NCBI GenBank assembly: GCA_001797815.1
Contig: MGQK01000081.1
Span: 130,818-140,893 of the forward strand
Direction of reading: 5' to 3'
DNA from: Deltaproteobacteria bacterium RBG_13_61_14
GTDB taxonomy: Bacteria; RBG-13-61-14
Length of the DNA: 10,076 bases
This document shows, in pieces, positions 2,044-10,048 of the stretch. The position numbers were made by a program, and so were the translations under genes. The first letter of the stretch is position 1. The number at the start of each line of letters is the position of its first letter. Under the pieces are notes generated by a model. The model had not been told where the DNA came from. It saw only the letters and a list, made by a program, of their open reading frames with translations, and ran no database searches.

Positions 2044-2487
2044 ATGAAGGTGATTTTGAAAACCGACGTGTCCCGGCTCGGCAAGACCGGCGAGGTGGTG
2101 GAGGTCAAACCCGGTTACGGCCGCAACTACCTGATCCCCCGCAACCTGGCGGTGGAGGCCACCCGCAAGAACGTGAACCAGCTCGGGCATGAAAAGCGCC
2201 TGATCTCGGACCAGCAGAGCCGCCAGAAGGCTTCCGCCGAAAAGCTGGCCGAGCAGCTCGAGAACTACTCCTGCACCATCCCCTGCAAGGTGGGGGAAAA
2301 CGACCGGCTCTTCGGCTCGGTTACCGCCCAGGATATTGCCGAGACCCTGCGCAAGGACGGCTACGCGGTGGATAAGCGGGAGGTGCTCCTGGAAGAGCCG
2401 ATGAAAACCCTGGGCGTCTATACCGTGCCCGTTCGCATCGGCGCCAAGGTCGAGGCCAAGCTCAAAGTCTGGCTGGTGAAAAAATGA
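2044..2487 (+). CDS. rplI: 50S ribosomal protein L9
   Basis: A 147-residue large-subunit protein of normal family length. The N-terminal rRNA-binding domain has MKVILKTDVSRLGKTGEVV and the Gly-rich signature PGYGRNYLIPRNLA. A long charged helix (about residues 42-75) links it to the C-terminal domain, which includes LFGSVTAQDIAE and ends KVEAKLKVWLVKK. The ATG at 2044 follows GAGGAG at 2031-2036 with 7-base spacing; an in-frame TTG at 2029 is rejected because it precedes the universal MKVIL start. It is the third gene of the rpsF operon, and its stop overlaps the start of a lipoprotein gene. Confidence 0.97.
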   Translation: MKVILKTDVSRLGKTGEVVEVKPGYGRNYLIPRNLAVEATRKNVNQLGHEKRLISDQQSRQKASAEKLAEQLENYSCTIPCKVGENDRLFGSVTAQDIAETLRKDGYAVDKREVLLEEPMKTLGVYTVPVRIGAKVEAKLKVWLVKK

Positions 2488-3209
2488 ACCGGTTCGATCG
2501 AGTCCTGGGGATGGGCTTGGCCCTGGCGCTGATCCTCCTCGGAGTAACCGCCTGCGACAGTGAGACCGAGGCCAAGGAAGAGGTCGTCAACATCAGCGGT
2601 TCGGATCCCCGCGCCATCCTCGCCCCCGGCAAGGCTGGGGTCCTCTCCGGCACCACCCTGCTCGTGCCCCGGGTTCCCAATACCTTTCATGTTTACTCGG
2701 TCCCGGAATTCGCGGGGGTGGAGAACCCCGGCGAGGCGGGGATCGGCACTTCAATCGGTTACAATCCGGGCGAACGGGTCTTTCTCCCGATCAACGTCAA
2801 CCTGGGCATGGAAGAGTTAGGCTCCTACTCCATCACCCTCACCCTGCAGAACCCCGCCGCGATCCAGATCGTGGACGTGGATGGCAGCGTTCCTTATCTG
2901 CCCATCAGCTACCCCAGCCAGTATCAAGCCGCGGAGGGCTTTGAAACCCAGCCCGTGGTCAGCATCGGAAATACTGTTACCACCATTTCCGCCGCCTCCG
3001 CTTCCGCGGAGCCGACCACCGGCCGGGTGAACCTGGCCTACGTGACCGTGGACATCCTGGAGCCGGGTCCGCTCCCGCCGGCCGGCGCCGTTATCACCTT
3101 TACCCTGGACTCACTCCAAACTCCCGGCGATGATGACATCTGCGCCATCCTCACCGGCGGCTGCACCACCTTCGACGGAATCGTGATCGAGAACTTCAGG
3201 ATCCAGTAG
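2484..3209 (+). CDS. Predicted lipoprotein with a cohesin-like beta domain
   Basis: A 241-residue protein with an N-terminal lipoprotein signal: basic start MNRFDR, hydrophobic GLALALILLG, and lipobox VTAC with the lipidated cysteine at C24. After a short acidic linker, residues from about 80 to the end are rich in beta strand. The pattern GERVFLPINVNLGMEELGSYSITL... followed late by GAVITFTLDSL resembles the beta-sandwich of type I cohesin-like domains, where an N-terminal 'defined protein-binding strand' and a late 'G.ItFtv' strand recur. This is a fold-level guess; no dockerin is visible nearby. C-terminal Cys pair C221 and C228 could form a disulfide. The ATG overlaps the rplI stop (ATGA), so it is read from the ribosomal operon. 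No separate Shine-Dalgarno is strong. Confidence 0.7.
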   Translation: MNRFDRVLGMGLALALILLGVTACDSETEAKEEVVNISGSDPRAILAPGKAGVLSGTTLLVPRVPNTFHVYSVPEFAGVENPGEAGIGTSIGYNPGERVFLPINVNLGMEELGSYSITLTLQNPAAIQIVDVDGSVPYLPISYPSQYQAAEGFETQPVVSIGNTVTTISAASASAEPTTGRVNLAYVTVDILEPGPLPPAGAVITFTLDSLQTPGDDDICAILTGGCTTFDGIVIENFRIQ

Positions 3210-3232: not shown

Positions 3233-4096
3233 TTATCTCCAGAGTTGGACCGGGAGCTTGGCCGCCAGGTAGAAGACCACCCAGGCGCCGCACAGGTCGC
3301 AATCCACGTCGTTGCCATAGCAACAATAAGGAATCACGAATTCCTCGCCCTCCAGATAGAGGGGCAAGACGTATTGCTTGGCCGGGCAATGGTCGGTGAC
3401 CGCCTTGGCGTGGGGCGAGAGCATCAGCTCCAGGCTCCGGCGCTTGCTCCAGATAAAGTCCGGATACTTCTCCTTGAGACGGATCGCCTCGCGCACCGCC
3501 CGGTCCCGGCGCTCGAGTGAGCCCCAGGTGAGCTCCGAATCATCCTTTTGGCGCGGAACATAAAACGAGAAGGTCAGGCCCTGGATCCGGGTCGGCCGCA
3601 GCCGCGCGACCAACTCCTCCAGCCGGTCCTCGTTCAACCGGGTCACCACGCATTGGCACATGAGCGTCGGCCCGAACTTGGCCGGCACCCGCCTGAGCGT
3701 CTTCATCACCCTTGCGAAGGTGCCTTTGCCCCGGATCGCGTCGTTAAGCTCCGGCGGGCCGTCCAGCGAGATCACGTAAATGCAGCGGGGCAGCTCGATC
3801 AGGTCCAGGGTGCCGTTGGTGGTGACGGTGTTGCGGCCGAAGAGTTTCGCGCCCTCGCGCAGCACCTCCGGCCGCAGCAGCGGCTCGCCTCCCATCCAGA
3901 GCATGGTCAGGATGCCGCAGCGCTTTTGCAATTCGGCGAGCTTCCGGACCATGGTCGCGCTGTCCATCTCCTGGCGCGGCTGGTTGGGGTTGCCCTCCCG
4001 GTAAACGAAGCAATGCCGGCAGCTTAAGCTGCAGCGGTTGGTGATGTTGACCACGGCGCCGGGGTATTGACGGTCAGGGATGGCGGAAGTCGTCAT
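3233..4096 (-). CDS. Radical SAM protein with C-terminal auxiliary-cluster cysteines
   Basis: A 287-residue predicted [4Fe-4S] enzyme that cleaves S-adenosylmethionine reductively to make a 5'-deoxyadenosyl radical. The cluster motif CSLSCRHC (C22, C26, C29) follows NITNR, the SAM-binding motif is GGEP at 69-72, and the strand VISLDG at 108-113 matches the barrel core. A second group of cysteines (C237, C258, C259, C266, C269) lies in a short C-terminal region with the LYLEGEEFVIPYCCYGN pattern. It resembles a shortened SPASM/Twitch domain that holds an auxiliary Fe-S cluster. Such domains are typical of peptide-modifying maturases and dehydrogenating radical enzymes. No small substrate peptide is seen nearby. 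Last gene of a three-gene operon, 10 bases after the second dehydrogenase. The substrate is unknown. Confidence 0.85.
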   Translation of the reverse strand: MTTSAIPDRQYPGAVVNITNRCSLSCRHCFVYREGNPNQPRQEMDSATMVRKLAELQKRCGILTMLWMGGEPLLRPEVLREGAKLFGRNTVTTNGTLDLIELPRCIYVISLDGPPELNDAIRGKGTFARVMKTLRRVPAKFGPTLMCQCVVTRLNEDRLEELVARLRPTRIQGLTFSFYVPRQKDDSELTWGSLERRDRAVREAIRLKEKYPDFIWSKRRSLELMLSPHAKAVTDHCPAKQYVLPLYLEGEEFVIPYCCYGNDVDCDLCGAWVVFYLAAKLPVQLWR

Positions 4097-4106
4097 GGGC
4101 AGGGTC

Positions 4107-5366
4107 TCAGGAGCTCCGGGTAAAGTCGAAGACGACCTTCACCGCGTGGGAGCCGCTTTTGCCGGCCAGCGTATCAAAGGCGGCCTGGTATTGGGCCAGC
4201 GGGAATTGATGGGTGACCAGGGGCGAGGGATCAAATTTCTTCTCGGCCAGGAACTTAAGGAAAAATTCGAAGGCGTGCGCTTTCCGGCCGCGAAAAGTCT
4301 CCAGGGCGAAGGCGTTGGAGCCGATGATCTCCAGCTCCTTGAAATAATGGGGCGTGTTCTCGCAGCGTCTCGGCACCTCCACTCCGGTGAAGACCAGCCG
4401 GCCCTGGGCCTTGAGAAACCGCAGGCCGGCTTCCAGGGTGGCGGCAGACGAGATCGTGTCCAGGACCGCGTCCACGCCGTCCATGCACCATTTCCAGCCC
4501 CGGTCGGGCGTGTAGAGCTCGGCCCCGGTAAAGGCCGCCACTTCCTCCACCAACCTGGCCCCGCTGGTCAAGAACACGCGCTCCGCGCCCAAGCGCCGGG
4601 CCAGCTCTTTTTGGAAGGGGTAGCGGCCGACCGCCAACACTCGCTTGACCTCGAACAGGTTCTTGAGACAGATGATCGTGGCCAGGCCGATCACCCCGAG
4701 GCCGTAAACCAGGACCAGAGTATCGGGTTCCGGCTCGAGCAGCCGGCAGGAATGGAAGGCCACGGAAAAGGGTTCGGCCAGGACCGCGGCCTCGAAGCTG
4801 ACCTCCGGAGGAATGACAAAGCACTGCGATTCGTGAGCCGCCACGTAGGGCGCGAAGCCGCCGAAGCCGGGGGTGACGCCGAGGTGCATGCCCGGCGGAA
4901 GCTGCCCGCGGCGGAAATTATGACAATGGGTATAATCTCCCTCTTGGCAGCGGGGGCAGGCCGGCTGGATACCCCGAGGGGCACAGGCAAGCCAGGGGCT
5001 GAGCGCCACGCGGTCGCCGGGCCGGAGCCGGGTCACTCGGCCGCCGGCCTGCTCAATGGTCCCGACCGCCTCGTGGCCCATGATCTGGGGAAAGCTGATC
5101 AGGGTTTGCAAGGGGTTGTCCCTGGCGCCGCTGAGGGTCAGCTCCTTCATGTCGCTCCCGCAGATGCCGCAATAGGCCGTCTGGACGATGACCCAATCTT
5201 CCGCCGGCAGCGCGGGCCGGGGCACCTGCCGGAGCGCCACCGGGCCGCCCGGTTTCCAGTAGCCGCCGGGACGGCGGAGACCCCGCAGCTTGGCGAGCGC
5301 GAGCTTGCCCAGGTGGAAGTCGAATTGGAGCGCGGGCATGGTCGCGGCCGGAGGGCTGCCACTCAT
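4107..5366 (-). CDS. Zinc-dependent medium-chain dehydrogenase, copy 2 (Tdh/ADH family)
   Basis: A 419-residue NAD(P)-dependent alcohol or polyol dehydrogenase of the COG1063 type. The catalytic zinc site can be read as C69 (CGICGSD), H98-E99 (IMGHEAVG) and E198 (LAEPFSVAFHS). The structural zinc lobe has C128, C137, C140 and C148. The Rossmann motif is GLGVIG (G222, G224, G227). It is about 60-70 residues longer than standard 350-residue members, with an N-terminal lead and a late insert around IIGSNAFA. It is a clear paralogue of the upstream neighbour. Start: ATG at 5366 overlaps the upstream stop (TGATG) and has GGAGG 8 bases upstream. A GTG at 5369 is equally possible. An ATG at 5339 matches the paralogue's first residue but has no ribosome binding site. 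The substrate cannot be deduced. Confidence 0.88.
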   Translation of the reverse strand: MSGSPPAATMPALQFDFHLGKLALAKLRGLRRPGGYWKPGGPVALRQVPRPALPAEDWVIVQTAYCGICGSDMKELTLSGARDNPLQTLISFPQIMGHEAVGTIEQAGGRVTRLRPGDRVALSPWLACAPRGIQPACPRCQEGDYTHCHNFRRGQLPPGMHLGVTPGFGGFAPYVAAHESQCFVIPPEVSFEAAVLAEPFSVAFHSCRLLEPEPDTLVLVYGLGVIGLATIICLKNLFEVKRVLAVGRYPFQKELARRLGAERVFLTSGARLVEEVAAFTGAELYTPDRGWKWCMDGVDAVLDTISSAATLEAGLRFLKAQGRLVFTGVEVPRRCENTPHYFKELEIIGSNAFALETFRGRKAHAFEFFLKFLAEKKFDPSPLVTHQFPLAQYQAAFDTLAGKSGSHAVKVVFDFTRSS

Positions 5367-6643
5367 CACGCTTGCCTCCGCTCCGGCTCCGGGTAGGCGA
5401 AAAGCACCTTGATCGCGCCCGATTGTTTCTGCTCGTGCGCGGCCACCAGGGCATCCCGGTATCGGGACAAGGGGAATTGATGGGTCAGCATCGCCGTCGG
5501 GTCAGCCCGGCCTTCCTCAAGGAACCGGAAGTAATGGCCGTAGGCGTGCTCGCGCCGGCCCTCGAACTCTTCCACGGCAAAGGCGTTGCTGCCGATGATC
5601 CGGATTTCCTTGAAATACCAGGGCGTCCATTCAAAGCGCCGGGGCGCGGAAACGCCGGTGACCACGATCACGCCGGAGCGATGGCCGTCCCGGCCCGCCC
5701 TTCGCGCCTTGACGATGCGGATGCCGGTGGCCAGGGTTTCCGCCGAGGCCACGGTGTCGAAGAGGATGTCCACGCCCTCGATCAGCCAGGGTTGCTTGGG
5801 TTTCAGATAGTAAATTTCGCAGCCCAGGTGCTCGGCGACCTGCTCGATCAGGCGGTGCGGAGGCCGGGCGGCGAGCACCAGGTCCGCCCCGAAGCGGCGC
5901 GCCATCTCCGCCTGCTGGGGGAAGGCGGCGAGGGCGATCACCTGGACCCCGGAGAAGACGCGCTTGAGGATGTGGACGGTGAGGAGTCCGAGGTTGCCGC
6001 AGCCGTAGACCGCGACTACGGATCCCGGCTGCGGCCGCACTTTCAGAACTGAATGGAAGGCGACGGAGAAGGGATCGGCCAGCACCGCCTGCTCCCAGGT
6101 GATGTTGTCCGGGATCGCGACGGCCATGGACTCGTGGGCCGGAAGGAGCTCGGCAAAGCCGCCGGTCACGTCGCGGCTGTTGCCGGTGTGGATGCCGGGC
6201 GCGACCCGGCCCTTGGTGAAGTTGCGGCACAGCGTATTTTTTCCGGCCCGGCAGGCGGGGCAGGGCGGCTCGATCCCCCGGGGCCCGCAGGAGATCCAGG
6301 GGTTGAGCGCCACCCGGTCGCCGGGCTTGACCCGGGTGACGGCTGAGCCGACGCGCTCGACCCGGCCCACCACCTCGTGGCCCAGGATCTGGGGCCAGGA
6401 GATGACCGCGGTCATGGGGTTGTCGAGGTTGCCGTCGAGGAATACCTGTTTGTGGTCGCTGCCGCAGATGCCGCAATAGCGGGGCCGGATGACCAGCCAG
6501 TCGTCGGCCAAAGGCTCGGGATCCGGCAAGTCCAGGTAGCGCAGGAAGCCGAAGCGGGTGAAGTATCCCCCCGGGCGGAACAGGCCGGCGATGCGGCTCG
6601 CGGCCAGGCGCGGAAGTTTATACTCGAAGACAAGCGCCTTCAT
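5366..6643 (-). CDS. Zinc-dependent medium-chain dehydrogenase, copy 1 (Tdh/ADH family)
   Basis: A 425-residue cytoplasmic oxidoreductase, predicted to interconvert an alcohol and a carbonyl with NAD(P). Catalytic zinc residues: C60 (CGICGSD), H89-E90 (ILGHEVVG) and D190 in LADPFSVAFHS, where the paralogue and most relatives have Glu. Structural zinc cysteines are C119, C128, C131 and C139. The Rossmann motif is GCGNLG (G214, G216, G219). Shared blocks with copy 2 include FRPGGY-type N-termini, the YFKE..IIGSNAFA block and THQFPL near the C-terminus, showing an old tandem duplication. It carries a short basic insert KARRAGRDGHRSG before the VIVVTG strand that copy 2 lacks. It is the first gene of the minus-strand operon, with the start ATG at 6643 only about 5 bases from a predicted transcription start and no clear Shine-Dalgarno. 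Confidence 0.89.
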   Translation of the reverse strand: MKALVFEYKLPRLAASRIAGLFRPGGYFTRFGFLRYLDLPDPEPLADDWLVIRPRYCGICGSDHKQVFLDGNLDNPMTAVISWPQILGHEVVGRVERVGSAVTRVKPGDRVALNPWISCGPRGIEPPCPACRAGKNTLCRNFTKGRVAPGIHTGNSRDVTGGFAELLPAHESMAVAIPDNITWEQAVLADPFSVAFHSVLKVRPQPGSVVAVYGCGNLGLLTVHILKRVFSGVQVIALAAFPQQAEMARRFGADLVLAARPPHRLIEQVAEHLGCEIYYLKPKQPWLIEGVDILFDTVASAETLATGIRIVKARRAGRDGHRSGVIVVTGVSAPRRFEWTPWYFKEIRIIGSNAFAVEEFEGRREHAYGHYFRFLEEGRADPTAMLTHQFPLSRYRDALVAAHEQKQSGAIKVLFAYPEPERRQA

Positions 6644-6654
6644 CGAACTCGGTC

Positions 6655-6663
6655 ATCATAGCA
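6655..6663 (-). promoter_or_regulatory. Extended -10 promoter for the dehydrogenase/radical SAM operon
   Basis: Read on the minus strand, the sequence is TGC followed by TATGAT (-10 hexamer at 6660-6655), an extended -10 element needing little -35. No good -35 is visible at 17 bases. Transcription would begin near 6648, leaving only about 5 bases before the ATG at 6643, consistent with a nearly leaderless message and with the missing Shine-Dalgarno. Confidence 0.45.
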
Positions 6664-6708
6664 CAAGAGGCCGGATAAACCCATGCCTAACCGCTTGCAA
6701 TTCCCCAT

Positions 6709-6736
6709 TTGATTGATTTATTGTTTGTGCTATAAA
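6709..6736 (+). promoter_or_regulatory. Promoter for the methyltransferase-like gene
   Basis: TTGATT (6709-6714), a 16-base spacer and TATAAA (6731-6736), with TGC directly before the -10 (6728-6730) forming an extended -10. The predicted start near 6743 falls at the edge of the GGAGGAG ribosome binding sequence (6742-6748), so the true start may be a few bases earlier. Confidence 0.5.
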
Positions 6737-6741
6737 CAAAC
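6723..6741. repeat. Inverted repeat over the -10 box (possible operator)
   Basis: GTTTGT at 6723-6728 and ACAAAC at 6736-6741 form a perfect 6-base inverted repeat with a 7-base centre. It covers the predicted TATAAA box of the methyltransferase promoter, so a bound repressor would block polymerase. No regulator gene is in the window, and six matching bases can occur by chance. Confidence 0.35.
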
Positions 6742-6760
6742 GGAGGAGTGGACATTCGCC

Positions 6761-7858
6761 ATGGCTCTAATTGACTCGGTTTCCATTCGGTCTCAGCCCG
6801 ATTTCTCCCGGTTGCGCCAGGTGCTCCTCCGCCAGGGGCTCCCGGACCGGGTCCCGTTCTACGAGCTCTTCGCCGACAAGCCGATCAAGGACAAGATCCT
6901 GGGCAAGCCCTGTTTGCTCTTCCTGCTCCCCTCGCCCGACCTGGATCAGTTGATCCGCAACGAGATCGAATTCTGGTCGCGTCTCGGCTTCGACTACGTG
7001 CCGGCTTCGCCCCCCTTCCTGTTCACCACCAAAGTCTCGATCAGCCGCGACACCGCCAGCCTCACCCTCGGCGCGCGCCTCTGGCTGAACGAGGCCGCGA
7101 CCAATATCATCAAGACCCGCGCCGACTACGAGCGCCACCAGTTCCCCCAGGTGGAGATGATCAACTGGAGCGCTTTCGACCGGCTCTGTGAAATGCTCCC
7201 CGAGGGCATGGTCGCCTTCGGCCAGCTCTCGGGCGTGCTCGAGAACGTGATGTGGCTGATGGGCCACGAGGGCCTGGCCTTTGCCCTGGCCGACGACCCG
7301 GAGCTGGTGCAGATGATGTTCGACCGCATCGGCTCCGCGCTGCTCAAGCTCACCCGGCTCATGCTCGAGCGGCCCCGGGTGGGCGCCATCCAGATGGGGG
7401 ACGACATGGGCTTCAACACCGGCACCTTCCTCTCCCCGGCCGCGCTCCGCCGCTACGTCTTCCCCTGGCAGAAAAAGCTGGTGGAAGCGACCCATGCCGC
7501 CGGCCGGCCCTTTATCCTTCATTCTTGCGGCAACCTGACCAAGATCATGGAAGAACTGATTGAAGAGGTGGGGATTGACGCCAAGCACAGCTTTGAGGAC
7601 GCGATCATGCCGGTGGCGGAGGTGAAGCGGCGCTGGGGCGGCCGGATCGCGGTGCTGGGCGGGGTGGACCTGGGGGTGCTGGCGCGGGCCTCGGTGGAGG
7701 AGGTGCGGGCCTACACCCGGAAGGTCATGCAGGATTGCATGGAAGGCGGGGGCTGGGCGCTGGGCTCGGGCAACTCGGTGGCCAACTACCTCCAGCCGGA
7801 GAACTACCTGGCCATGCTCGAAGAGGGCTGGAAGTGTGGAAGCTACCACGCGGCCTGA
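6761..7858 (+). CDS. Uroporphyrinogen decarboxylase superfamily protein (MtaA/CmuA-type methyltransferase-like)
   Basis: A 365-residue TIM-barrel protein of the URO-D superfamily. It lacks the HemE N-terminal signature with RQAGRY, so it is not the haem enzyme. It instead resembles the cobamide:CoM methyltransferase branch (MtaA, MtbA, CmuA), which moves methyl groups between corrinoid proteins and thiols or folates using zinc. The likely zinc motif is HSCG (H254, C256). Other marked sites are the acidic GDDMG (214-215) and HSFED (H276, E279). Near the C-terminus GSGNSVANY takes the place of the PGC segment that holds the third zinc Cys in MtaA; C326 lies 10 or so residues earlier. The ATG at 6761 has GGAGGAG 12 bases upstream, a rather long spacing. 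The gene is divergent from the dehydrogenase operon. No corrinoid protein gene is in the window; substrate unknown. Confidence 0.82.
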   Translation: MALIDSVSIRSQPDFSRLRQVLLRQGLPDRVPFYELFADKPIKDKILGKPCLLFLLPSPDLDQLIRNEIEFWSRLGFDYVPASPPFLFTTKVSISRDTASLTLGARLWLNEAATNIIKTRADYERHQFPQVEMINWSAFDRLCEMLPEGMVAFGQLSGVLENVMWLMGHEGLAFALADDPELVQMMFDRIGSALLKLTRLMLERPRVGAIQMGDDMGFNTGTFLSPAALRRYVFPWQKKLVEATHAAGRPFILHSCGNLTKIMEELIEEVGIDAKHSFEDAIMPVAEVKRRWGGRIAVLGGVDLGVLARASVEEVRAYTRKVMQDCMEGGGWALGSGNSVANYLQPENYLAMLEEGWKCGSYHAA

Positions 7859-7911: not shown

Positions 7912-8805
7912 GTGAAAAACCGAAAAGGATTTTTGCAAACTGGATTTCTCACTCTGATTGCAGTTGCTCTAACCGCGCCCGTATCCTCGGAGAAGAGCAG
8001 CGGGTCGGGATTCGACCGGAAGAGCCGCGCATGGACCGAGCAGGGAGTTTTTTCCATCTTAACTTATAACGTGGCCGGCCTGCCCGAGCCGTTCTCCGGA
8101 TCCCGGCCGGCGAAGTATAGCCAGCTGATCAGCCCGCGGCTCAACGACTTCGACCTCGTGCTCACCCAGGAAGATTTCTGGTATCACCGGGACCTGGTCT
8201 CCGCCTCGAAGTTTCCCCACGTGGCCAAGCGGAGCCGGGCCGGGACCCTGGGCGACGGGTTGAGCCGGTTCTCCCGGTTTCCCATGAGCGAGGTGCAGCA
8301 CGAGGCCTGGCGGGCGTGCTCCGGCTACCTCCGGCGCGGGAGCGACTGCATGACCGCAAAGGGCTTTGCCTGGGCCCGGCACGAGCTCGCGCCGGGAATC
8401 TGGCTCGATGTCTATGACCTGCACATGGATGCCGGCCGGGACCCGGGCGACCAGGAGGCGCGGGCCGCGGAAATGGACCAGCTCATCGCCGCGATCCGCC
8501 GGCACTCGGCCGGCCGGGCGCTGATCGTGGCCGGCGACTGGAACCTGTATTGCCAGCGGCCGCGGGACCGGGCGGTCCTGCAGAAATTGTTGGATGAGGA
8601 ACATTTGACTGACGTGTGCCGGGCGCTGAACTGCGGGGAAGAGCGGGTTGACCGGATTCTGTTCCGGAGCAGCGCCGAGTTGGAGTTGATTCTCCGAAAC
8701 TACCGGGTGGAAGTGGAGCGGTTTCAAAATGACCAGGGCGGCCAGTTGTCGGACCACGAGGCGGTCTCGGCCGTGTTTGCATGGAAATACCTGGGTGCGG
8801 ATTGA
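7912..8805 (+). CDS. Secreted sphingomyelinase-like phosphodiesterase (EEP superfamily)
   Basis: A 297-residue protein with a Sec signal (KNRK start, hydrophobic FLTLIAVALTA, likely cleavage near residue 26) and no lipobox. The mature part is an endonuclease/exonuclease/phosphatase domain. Metal and catalytic residues can be read in order: N53 (TYNVAGLP), E87 (LTQEDF), H171 and D173 (LHMDAG), D209 and N211 (AGDWNL), D248 (VDRILF), D281-H282 (LSDHEAV). The TYNVAGLP and LHMDAG patterns are closest to bacterial neutral sphingomyelinases/phospholipase C, which split phosphodiester headgroups from lipids outside the cytoplasm. A secreted nuclease is the main alternative. The start is GTG at 7912, with AAGG at 7901-7904 and a signal peptide directly following; upstream in-frame codons overlap the methyltransferase gene and look non-coding. 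It lies 53 bases after that gene. Confidence 0.8.
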   Translation: MKNRKGFLQTGFLTLIAVALTAPVSSEKSSGSGFDRKSRAWTEQGVFSILTYNVAGLPEPFSGSRPAKYSQLISPRLNDFDLVLTQEDFWYHRDLVSASKFPHVAKRSRAGTLGDGLSRFSRFPMSEVQHEAWRACSGYLRRGSDCMTAKGFAWARHELAPGIWLDVYDLHMDAGRDPGDQEARAAEMDQLIAAIRRHSAGRALIVAGDWNLYCQRPRDRAVLQKLLDEEHLTDVCRALNCGEERVDRILFRSSAELELILRNYRVEVERFQNDQGGQLSDHEAVSAVFAWKYLGAD

Positions 8806-8830: not shown

Positions 8831-10048
8831 TTGAATCGCAAGCTGGTATTGGTCCTGGTCTTGATGGTTTCCGGGATCGGCTTTTCTGCACCGGCATCGG
8901 AGCTTCCGGCCACCGAGTTCGACCAGATGTATGCGGACCTGGCCGCGTATCTCCTGGACCCGGCCCACCACCCGGACCTGGCTCACGGCGTAGTCCAAAT
9001 TGAATACGGCGACGCCAAGGCCTATTTCCCGGCCTGGGTGTATGTCCGGGACCAGCTTCCGGGCGAGAAACCCTCCGCCTTCGAGTTCCAGGTGGCCCGG
9101 GCCATGCACGACCGTTACCGCCGGGCCTTTGACCAGATCGAGCAATCGCCGCTTCAGGCGTTTAAGGATCTGAACCTGGCCATGGACGCGGCCATCGGGA
9201 TCGAGGGCATCTTCCGCGCCTATGAGCATGATTCTTCCGAGGATTACCGCGAACTGGCGCAGCGATACCTTGCCTTCGCCCGGCCCCTGGCCAAACATCC
9301 GGGCTTGCTCATGGCCTACCACCTGCAACCCTATGGCCCGGCTACCGTGATCGCCGGCGGCGCGTGGTTCTACCTGGAATACGCCCTGGCCACGCCGGCG
9401 GAAGACCCTCATCACGAGGAATACCTGCGGCTGGGATTGGACATGCTCGAGAAGATGGACCGGAAGCTTTATTCAAAACAGAAACACACCTACCGCTACT
9501 CCGTCCGGCCCGGGTATGACTTTATATATGTTTACAACAACACGGTGCTGGTGCAGGCCCTGGTCCGGGCCTACGTCCTGACCGGGGAGAGGCGTTACTA
9601 CGACCGGGCGCTGGAAATTATGCGCACCCTGGAGCAGGCGCTCTACCATCCCGGCTACCGCGGCTTTCTGGCGGCGGAGGATAACTGCCGCTATCATCGC
9701 CGGTATGAGAAAGTGGGGCCGCAGTATAACCGCGAATACATGGCGCTCTCGGCGCATAACTACATGGTCTATGCTTACCTTTCCCTATACGAGGCGGGCG
9801 GCTTCCGGGACCAGGAGCTGCTGGAGAAGGCGGCGGCGTGCTTGCGGTTCGAGCGGGATTGGCTCTGGGACCGCCAGGGCAAGATCCAGCACCATCTCGA
9901 GCGAGGCCGGCTCTCGCGGCCGGAGGACTACTGCATGGGGTGCAATTTCCAGACCTTGTATCACATCGTGCAGTACCAGGCCGCGCTCCGGCAGATCCCG
10001 ACCCAGCATCTCTTGCGGGCCGGCGAGGAGGTCAAGTCATCCCGATGA
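8831..10048 (+). CDS. Secreted all-helical protein, probable (alpha/alpha) toroid enzyme, function unknown
   Basis: A 405-residue protein with a signal peptide (MNRK, hydrophobic LVLVLVLMVSGIGF, likely cleavage after SAPA at about residue 22). The rest is a series of amphipathic helical hairpins with repeated aromatic and Gly turns: IFRAYEHDSSEDYRELAQ (127-144), WFYLEYALAT (179-188), LVRAYVLTGERRYYDRALEIM (244-264), YMVYAYLSLYEAGG (311-324). This spacing is typical of six-hairpin (alpha/alpha)6 barrels found in glycosidases, epimerases and lyases; no named family is recognised. A CMGC motif (C368, C371) and C286 could make a disulfide or metal site. The start is TTG at 8831 with GGAGG at 8821-8825, 5 bases upstream, and the signal peptide begins there. 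It follows the sphingomyelinase-like gene by 25 bases, in the same operon. Confidence 0.72.
   Translation: MNRKLVLVLVLMVSGIGFSAPASELPATEFDQMYADLAAYLLDPAHHPDLAHGVVQIEYGDAKAYFPAWVYVRDQLPGEKPSAFEFQVARAMHDRYRRAFDQIEQSPLQAFKDLNLAMDAAIGIEGIFRAYEHDSSEDYRELAQRYLAFARPLAKHPGLLMAYHLQPYGPATVIAGGAWFYLEYALATPAEDPHHEEYLRLGLDMLEKMDRKLYSKQKHTYRYSVRPGYDFIYVYNNTVLVQALVRAYVLTGERRYYDRALEIMRTLEQALYHPGYRGFLAAEDNCRYHRRYEKVGPQYNREYMALSAHNYMVYAYLSLYEAGGFRDQELLEKAAACLRFERDWLWDRQGKIQHHLERGRLSRPEDYCMGCNFQTLYHIVQYQAALRQIPTQHLLRAGEEVKSSR

Follow-up and report, generated by a model that had tools for sequence, protein, structure and literature searches.

Do four neighboring genes that encode two zinc-dependent dehydrogenases (ADH1 and ADH2), a radical SAM protein and a URO-D superfamily protein constitute one metabolic unit, or does a smaller module lie among them? 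The genes are located within a 10,076-nucleotide stretch of DNA (the window) from Deltaproteobacteria bacterium RBG_13_61_14, a bacterial assembly of 4.74 Mb that is 95% complete and in which the window is on a 193-kb contig. ADH1, ADH2 and the radical SAM gene are encoded, in that order of transcription, on the minus strand, and the URO-D gene is divergent, on the plus strand:

3233-4096, minus strand: radical SAM protein (PF04055, 4.6e-17)
4107-5369, minus strand: ADH2, a zinc dehydrogenase paralogous to ADH1 (PF08240/PF00107)
5366-6643, minus strand: ADH1, a zinc-dependent medium-chain dehydrogenase, first gene of the run (PF08240/PF00107)
6644-6760, no strand: divergent intergenic region of 117 bp (G+C 0.46)
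6761-7858, plus strand: URO-D superfamily protein of the MtaA-like fold class (PF01208, 6e-20)

Open reading frames and family searches bear out the description, in an earlier note, of a minus-strand trio whose genes overlap or lie 10 bases apart: ADH1 and ADH2 share 4 bases (5366-5369), and 10 bases separate ADH2 from the radical SAM gene. The divergent arrangement of the URO-D gene is also real, with a corrected start; homologues begin M(A/S)LIDEL, indicating that the gene starts at the ATG at 6761 (rather than the TTG at 6713) and that the divergent gap is 117 bp, not 69 bp. Co-regulation of the URO-D gene with the ADH run via this common intergenic region is possible. No sigma-70 site passed a scan of the region (6644-6760), and a 9-bp inverted repeat within it (6658-6666/6725-6733) was rejected as a regulatory site because 14% of shuffled sequences contain one like it and it is not significant. 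Beyond the URO-D gene, the window encodes a secreted endonuclease/exonuclease/phosphatase-family protein (7912-8805) and, after it, a protein of 405 aa (8831-10048) for which neither Pfam nor NCBIfam gave a match.

When ADH1 was used to query named genomes, 35 loci were recovered. The closest matches among them (59-65% identity) are all Lokiarchaeal, from Asgard archaea, and ADH1 and ADH2 are present in tandem, in the same order, in 11 of 11 Lokiarchaeal loci (including L051, in which ADH1 is in two pieces, and L034, in which the end of the contig truncates ADH2), with Lokiarchaeal ADH2 proteins 55-64% identical to that of the window. The paired alcohol dehydrogenase system proposed earlier is thus well founded. 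The other bacteria among the 35 loci, mostly Acidimicrobiia and their relatives together with two Acidobacteria, have a single copy with 44-50% identity, and L061 contains a distant relative only. The pair was found in none of 386 sampled bacterial genomes (few genomes per phylum), and when four candidates were scored per genome in this sample, no ADH2 match outside the source genome exceeded 38% identity, the nearest being 34-38%. Neither of the two order-mates that made up our order-level comparison set (G001 and G002) contains a match to the pair at the threshold used, and we found no description of the pair in the open-access literature. Separately, two contigs labeled as Bifidobacterium breve MAGs (L053 and L055) carry ADH genes near-identical to those of Actinobacteria IMCC26207, suggesting that these labels are wrong.

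In a maximum-likelihood tree, window ADH1 is located inside the Lokiarchaeal ADH1 clade (support 100/95), window ADH2 is sister to Lokiarchaeal ADH2 (100/100), and the ADH1 and ADH2 clades join at 95/89. Placement of the two window copies in matching Lokiarchaeal clades indicates that the duplication came before the Lokiarchaeal and window genes diverged, and that ADH1 and ADH2 were inherited or transferred as one. A laterally shared, conserved dehydrogenase pair is well supported by these data, and the pair was most likely exchanged, in either direction, between this bacterium's lineage and a Lokiarchaeia relative. At the genomic site, which in the window reads rpsF-rpsR-rplI-lipoprotein, both order-mates lack the ADH/radical SAM cassette; there, argJ and a gene of pilus type (identified by eye) come after the rplI-lipoprotein pair. 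The order-mate arrangement is consistent with the cassette having been gained in this lineage, or possibly with loss or rearrangement. In G+C and GC3, the four genes resemble their neighbors, so no recent transfer is visible. The lipoprotein-like gene itself (2484-3209, after rplI) belongs to no family, and G001 and G002 also have a similar gene after rplI.

Both dehydrogenases are predicted to be active enzymes. They contain ADH_N and ADH_zinc_N domains above cut-off, and they have kept the catalytic-site residues (C60 in GICGSD, H89 and E90 in GHE, and D190, Glu in ADH2, followed by Pro) and a complete set of structural-zinc cysteines (C119, C128, C131 and C139), with roles taken from known sorbitol dehydrogenase structures. 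The best solved-structure match by sequence is the ketose reductase 1e3j, which is also the nearest fold to a model of ADH1 (pLDDT 76.9, built from an alignment of only 15 rows). The window ADHs share with this sorbitol dehydrogenase/ketose reductase the fold, the GICGSD cysteine, GHE, (D/E)P and the four structural-zinc cysteines, but they are only ~25% identical to it, have an N-terminal extension and a longer zinc-lobe region, and occur as two diverged tandem copies. After the second Rossmann beta strand, 1e3j and the Lokiarchaeal ADH1s have Ala-Arg, the ADH2s have Gly-Arg and window ADH1 has Ala-Ala; this pattern hints at use of NADP(H) by most ADH copies. IolM (NF041097) is the best NCBIfam match of both proteins, but with 123.5 and 130.1 bits they are far under its cut-off of 450 and we rejected their assignment as scyllo-inosose 3-dehydrogenases; no inositol genes were seen near the window ADHs. 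ADH1 and ADH2 are most likely NAD(P)-linked polyol or secondary-alcohol dehydrogenases.

Elsewhere, ADH homologues have neighbors suggestive of aldehyde, CoA or lipid chemistry. Six Lokiarchaeal loci (L027-L032) have sulfopyruvate decarboxylase-family genes, alpha and beta, in divergent orientation to the pair (the copies in L028 exceed curated cut-offs), and a class III CoA-transferase gene is located downstream. Acidimicrobiia ADH genes neighbor acyl-CoA genes, and the distant ADH homologue in L095 adjoins a gene for a reductase-like NAD-binding protein (neighbors named by eye in both cases). The divergent decarboxylase genes could mean that the pair reduces an aldehyde produced by a 2-oxo-acid decarboxylase, for example sulfoacetaldehyde to isethionate. 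We consider this very unlikely, however, since no such decarboxylase gene is present in the window, nor next to the L035 and L036 pairs, and a single ancestral arrangement may explain all six loci. The Lokiarchaeal pairs are orthologues of the window pair, in the same order and with about 55-65% identity, but their surroundings differ, and neither a URO-D nor a radical SAM homologue adjoins them. A radical SAM gene that is located near a Lokiarchaeal pair has no recognizable homology to that of the window and was rejected as its counterpart.

Based on its position in the minus-strand run, the window radical SAM gene is probably co-transcribed with the ADH genes but is not a conserved partner of them. 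Its product belongs to the Radical SAM superfamily, with a PF04055 match and a CxxxCxxC motif (C22, C26 and C29) that is invariant in an alignment of eight homologues; four C-terminal cysteines (C237, C258, C266 and C269), which likely hold a second Fe-S cluster, are also invariant. Homologues are present in 8 of the 386 genomes at E 1e-40, counting the source genome, with identities of 69% (G026), 69% and 59% (G061), 55% (G291) and 53% (G153), and a wider search in the phylum of G291 covered two genomes. Both order-mates lack a match, and none of the homologues in other genomes (53-69%) adjoins ADH genes. The homologue in G026 adjoins a gene for a GmhA-like isomerase, and those in G061 and G291 (L089 and L090) adjoin orthologous acyl-CoA dehydrogenase genes. 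We rejected a conserved link with the acyl-CoA dehydrogenase, since the adjacency is limited to these two genomes; the orthologue in the source genome is located away from the radical SAM gene, and G001 and G002 have the orthologue but no radical SAM gene.

The radical SAM protein could mature a peptide or cofactor for the dehydrogenases in a mycofactocin-like manner, a role consistent with its four conserved C-terminal cysteines and with the oxidoreductases encoded beside its homologues (the acyl-CoA dehydrogenases of L089 and L090, an OYE-type reductase in L088, for which mycofactocin-OYE scores are under cut-off, and a GMC-like oxidoreductase, named by eye, in L091). SPASM/twitch maturases such as SkfB (6efn) have in common with it the radical SAM core (profile E 8.6e-19) and a C-terminal cysteine set, but the C-terminus of the window protein is short, no curated radical SAM subfamily matches it above that subfamily's own cut-off, and no precursor peptide accompanies it. 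Small ORFs that matched between loci are nearly all inside the radical SAM and acyl-CoA dehydrogenase genes, the few others being at chance level, so none is conserved beside the homologues outside the genes themselves. The score with the mycofactocin MftC model is 38.7 bits (cut-off 265), and together with the lack of a conserved small ORF this led us to reject a mycofactocin-like maturase class. Because, in addition, the Lokiarchaeal pair manages without this radical SAM gene, and the acyl-CoA dehydrogenase does so in the order-mates, a maturase role is highly improbable. A fold model of the protein from one sequence was unusable (pLDDT 38). We infer that a functional link of some kind may exist between the radical SAM protein and the ADHs.

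The URO-D gene, by contrast with the cassette, looks native to the order, since orthologues with 57-58% identity are present in G001 and G002, at unrelated sites. Its product shares with MtaA/CmuA the URO-D superfamily and an aligned HxCG motif, but the match to the MtaA profile (4ay7) is weak (1.1e-4) and the TIGR01463 score is 48 bits against a cut-off of 235.4, and we rejected membership in the MtaA/CmuA methyltransferase family. His254-x-Cys256 of the zinc motif (HSCG) is present. The place of the third cysteine reads GSGNS/GTGNS by motif (the 4ay7 alignment stops short of it), such that the third zinc ligand of thiol methyltransferases seems to be absent. In the URO-D superfamily, the zinc site of thiol methyltransferases is His-Cys-Cys, and O-methyltransferases show replacement of one or both cysteines (PMC10418091); an O-methyl substrate is therefore possible, and the protein may, by itself, have a corrinoid O-methyl role. 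A PF02607 search of the genome identified three corrinoid-binding proteins (on C110, C106 and C64), two of which adjoin URO-D paralogues, and none on the contig of the window, where the earlier note had suggested looking for one in neighboring DNA. On C106, one URO-D paralogue is directly followed by the corrinoid-binding protein. In L099 (G000:C106:62000-81900) and L101 (G000:C7), several URO-D paralogues are accompanied by GntR-type regulators and by large proteins that look secreted; these are possible corrinoid demethylation clusters.

The same note had suggested that the four genes could act in a single pathway for the oxidation of a methylated or methoxylated alcohol, in which a corrinoid or folate carrier would receive the methyl group from the URO-D protein. 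The divergent layout around a common 117-bp region, the retained His-x-Cys with an apparent Ser or Gly in place of the C-terminal cysteine, and the corrinoid-binding proteins elsewhere in the genome are consistent with such a pathway. The distribution of the genes argues against it: the order-mates have their URO-D orthologues elsewhere and lack the ADH pair and the radical SAM gene, the Lokiarchaeal pairs have neither companion, radical SAM homologues do not adjoin ADHs, and the contig lacks a corrinoid partner. The four families show no conserved adjacency, which the note itself had named as refuting its proposal, and conservation is limited to the ADH pair. A four-gene methyl-transfer pathway is thus very doubtful, and of the methyltransferase idea there survives only the compatibility of the URO-D zinc motif, taken alone, with an O-methyl substrate.

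On balance, we favor a model in which a laterally shared ADH1-ADH2 module is the functional core, the radical SAM gene was gained and the URO-D gene is a native neighbor. The two diverged sorbitol-dehydrogenase-type enzymes would be kept together as a two-gene core, probably translationally coupled, and would probably either form a mixed complex or catalyze successive hydroxyl/keto steps on one polyol or secondary-alcohol substrate with NAD(P)H. The pair would have passed laterally between a Lokiarchaeia relative and this lineage, the radical SAM gene would have been gained downstream in this genome, probably on the same transcript, and the URO-D gene, although now adjoining the cassette, would be unrelated to the ADHs. 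It is quite unlikely that the ADH pair, the radical SAM gene and the URO-D gene are all functionally independent chance neighbors: no two of these three parts adjoin in any other genome examined, but the spacing of ADH2 and the radical SAM gene, 10 bases on the same strand, argues for a single transcript. It is conceivable, if unlikely, that ADH1 and ADH2 form an obligate two-subunit system in an undescribed pathway common to Asgard archaea and a seldom-sampled bacterial lineage, with the radical SAM protein making or modifying the substrate. That Lokiarchaeia and a single distant bacterium have both retained the dehydrogenase pair suggests an uncharacterized metabolic step that they have in common.
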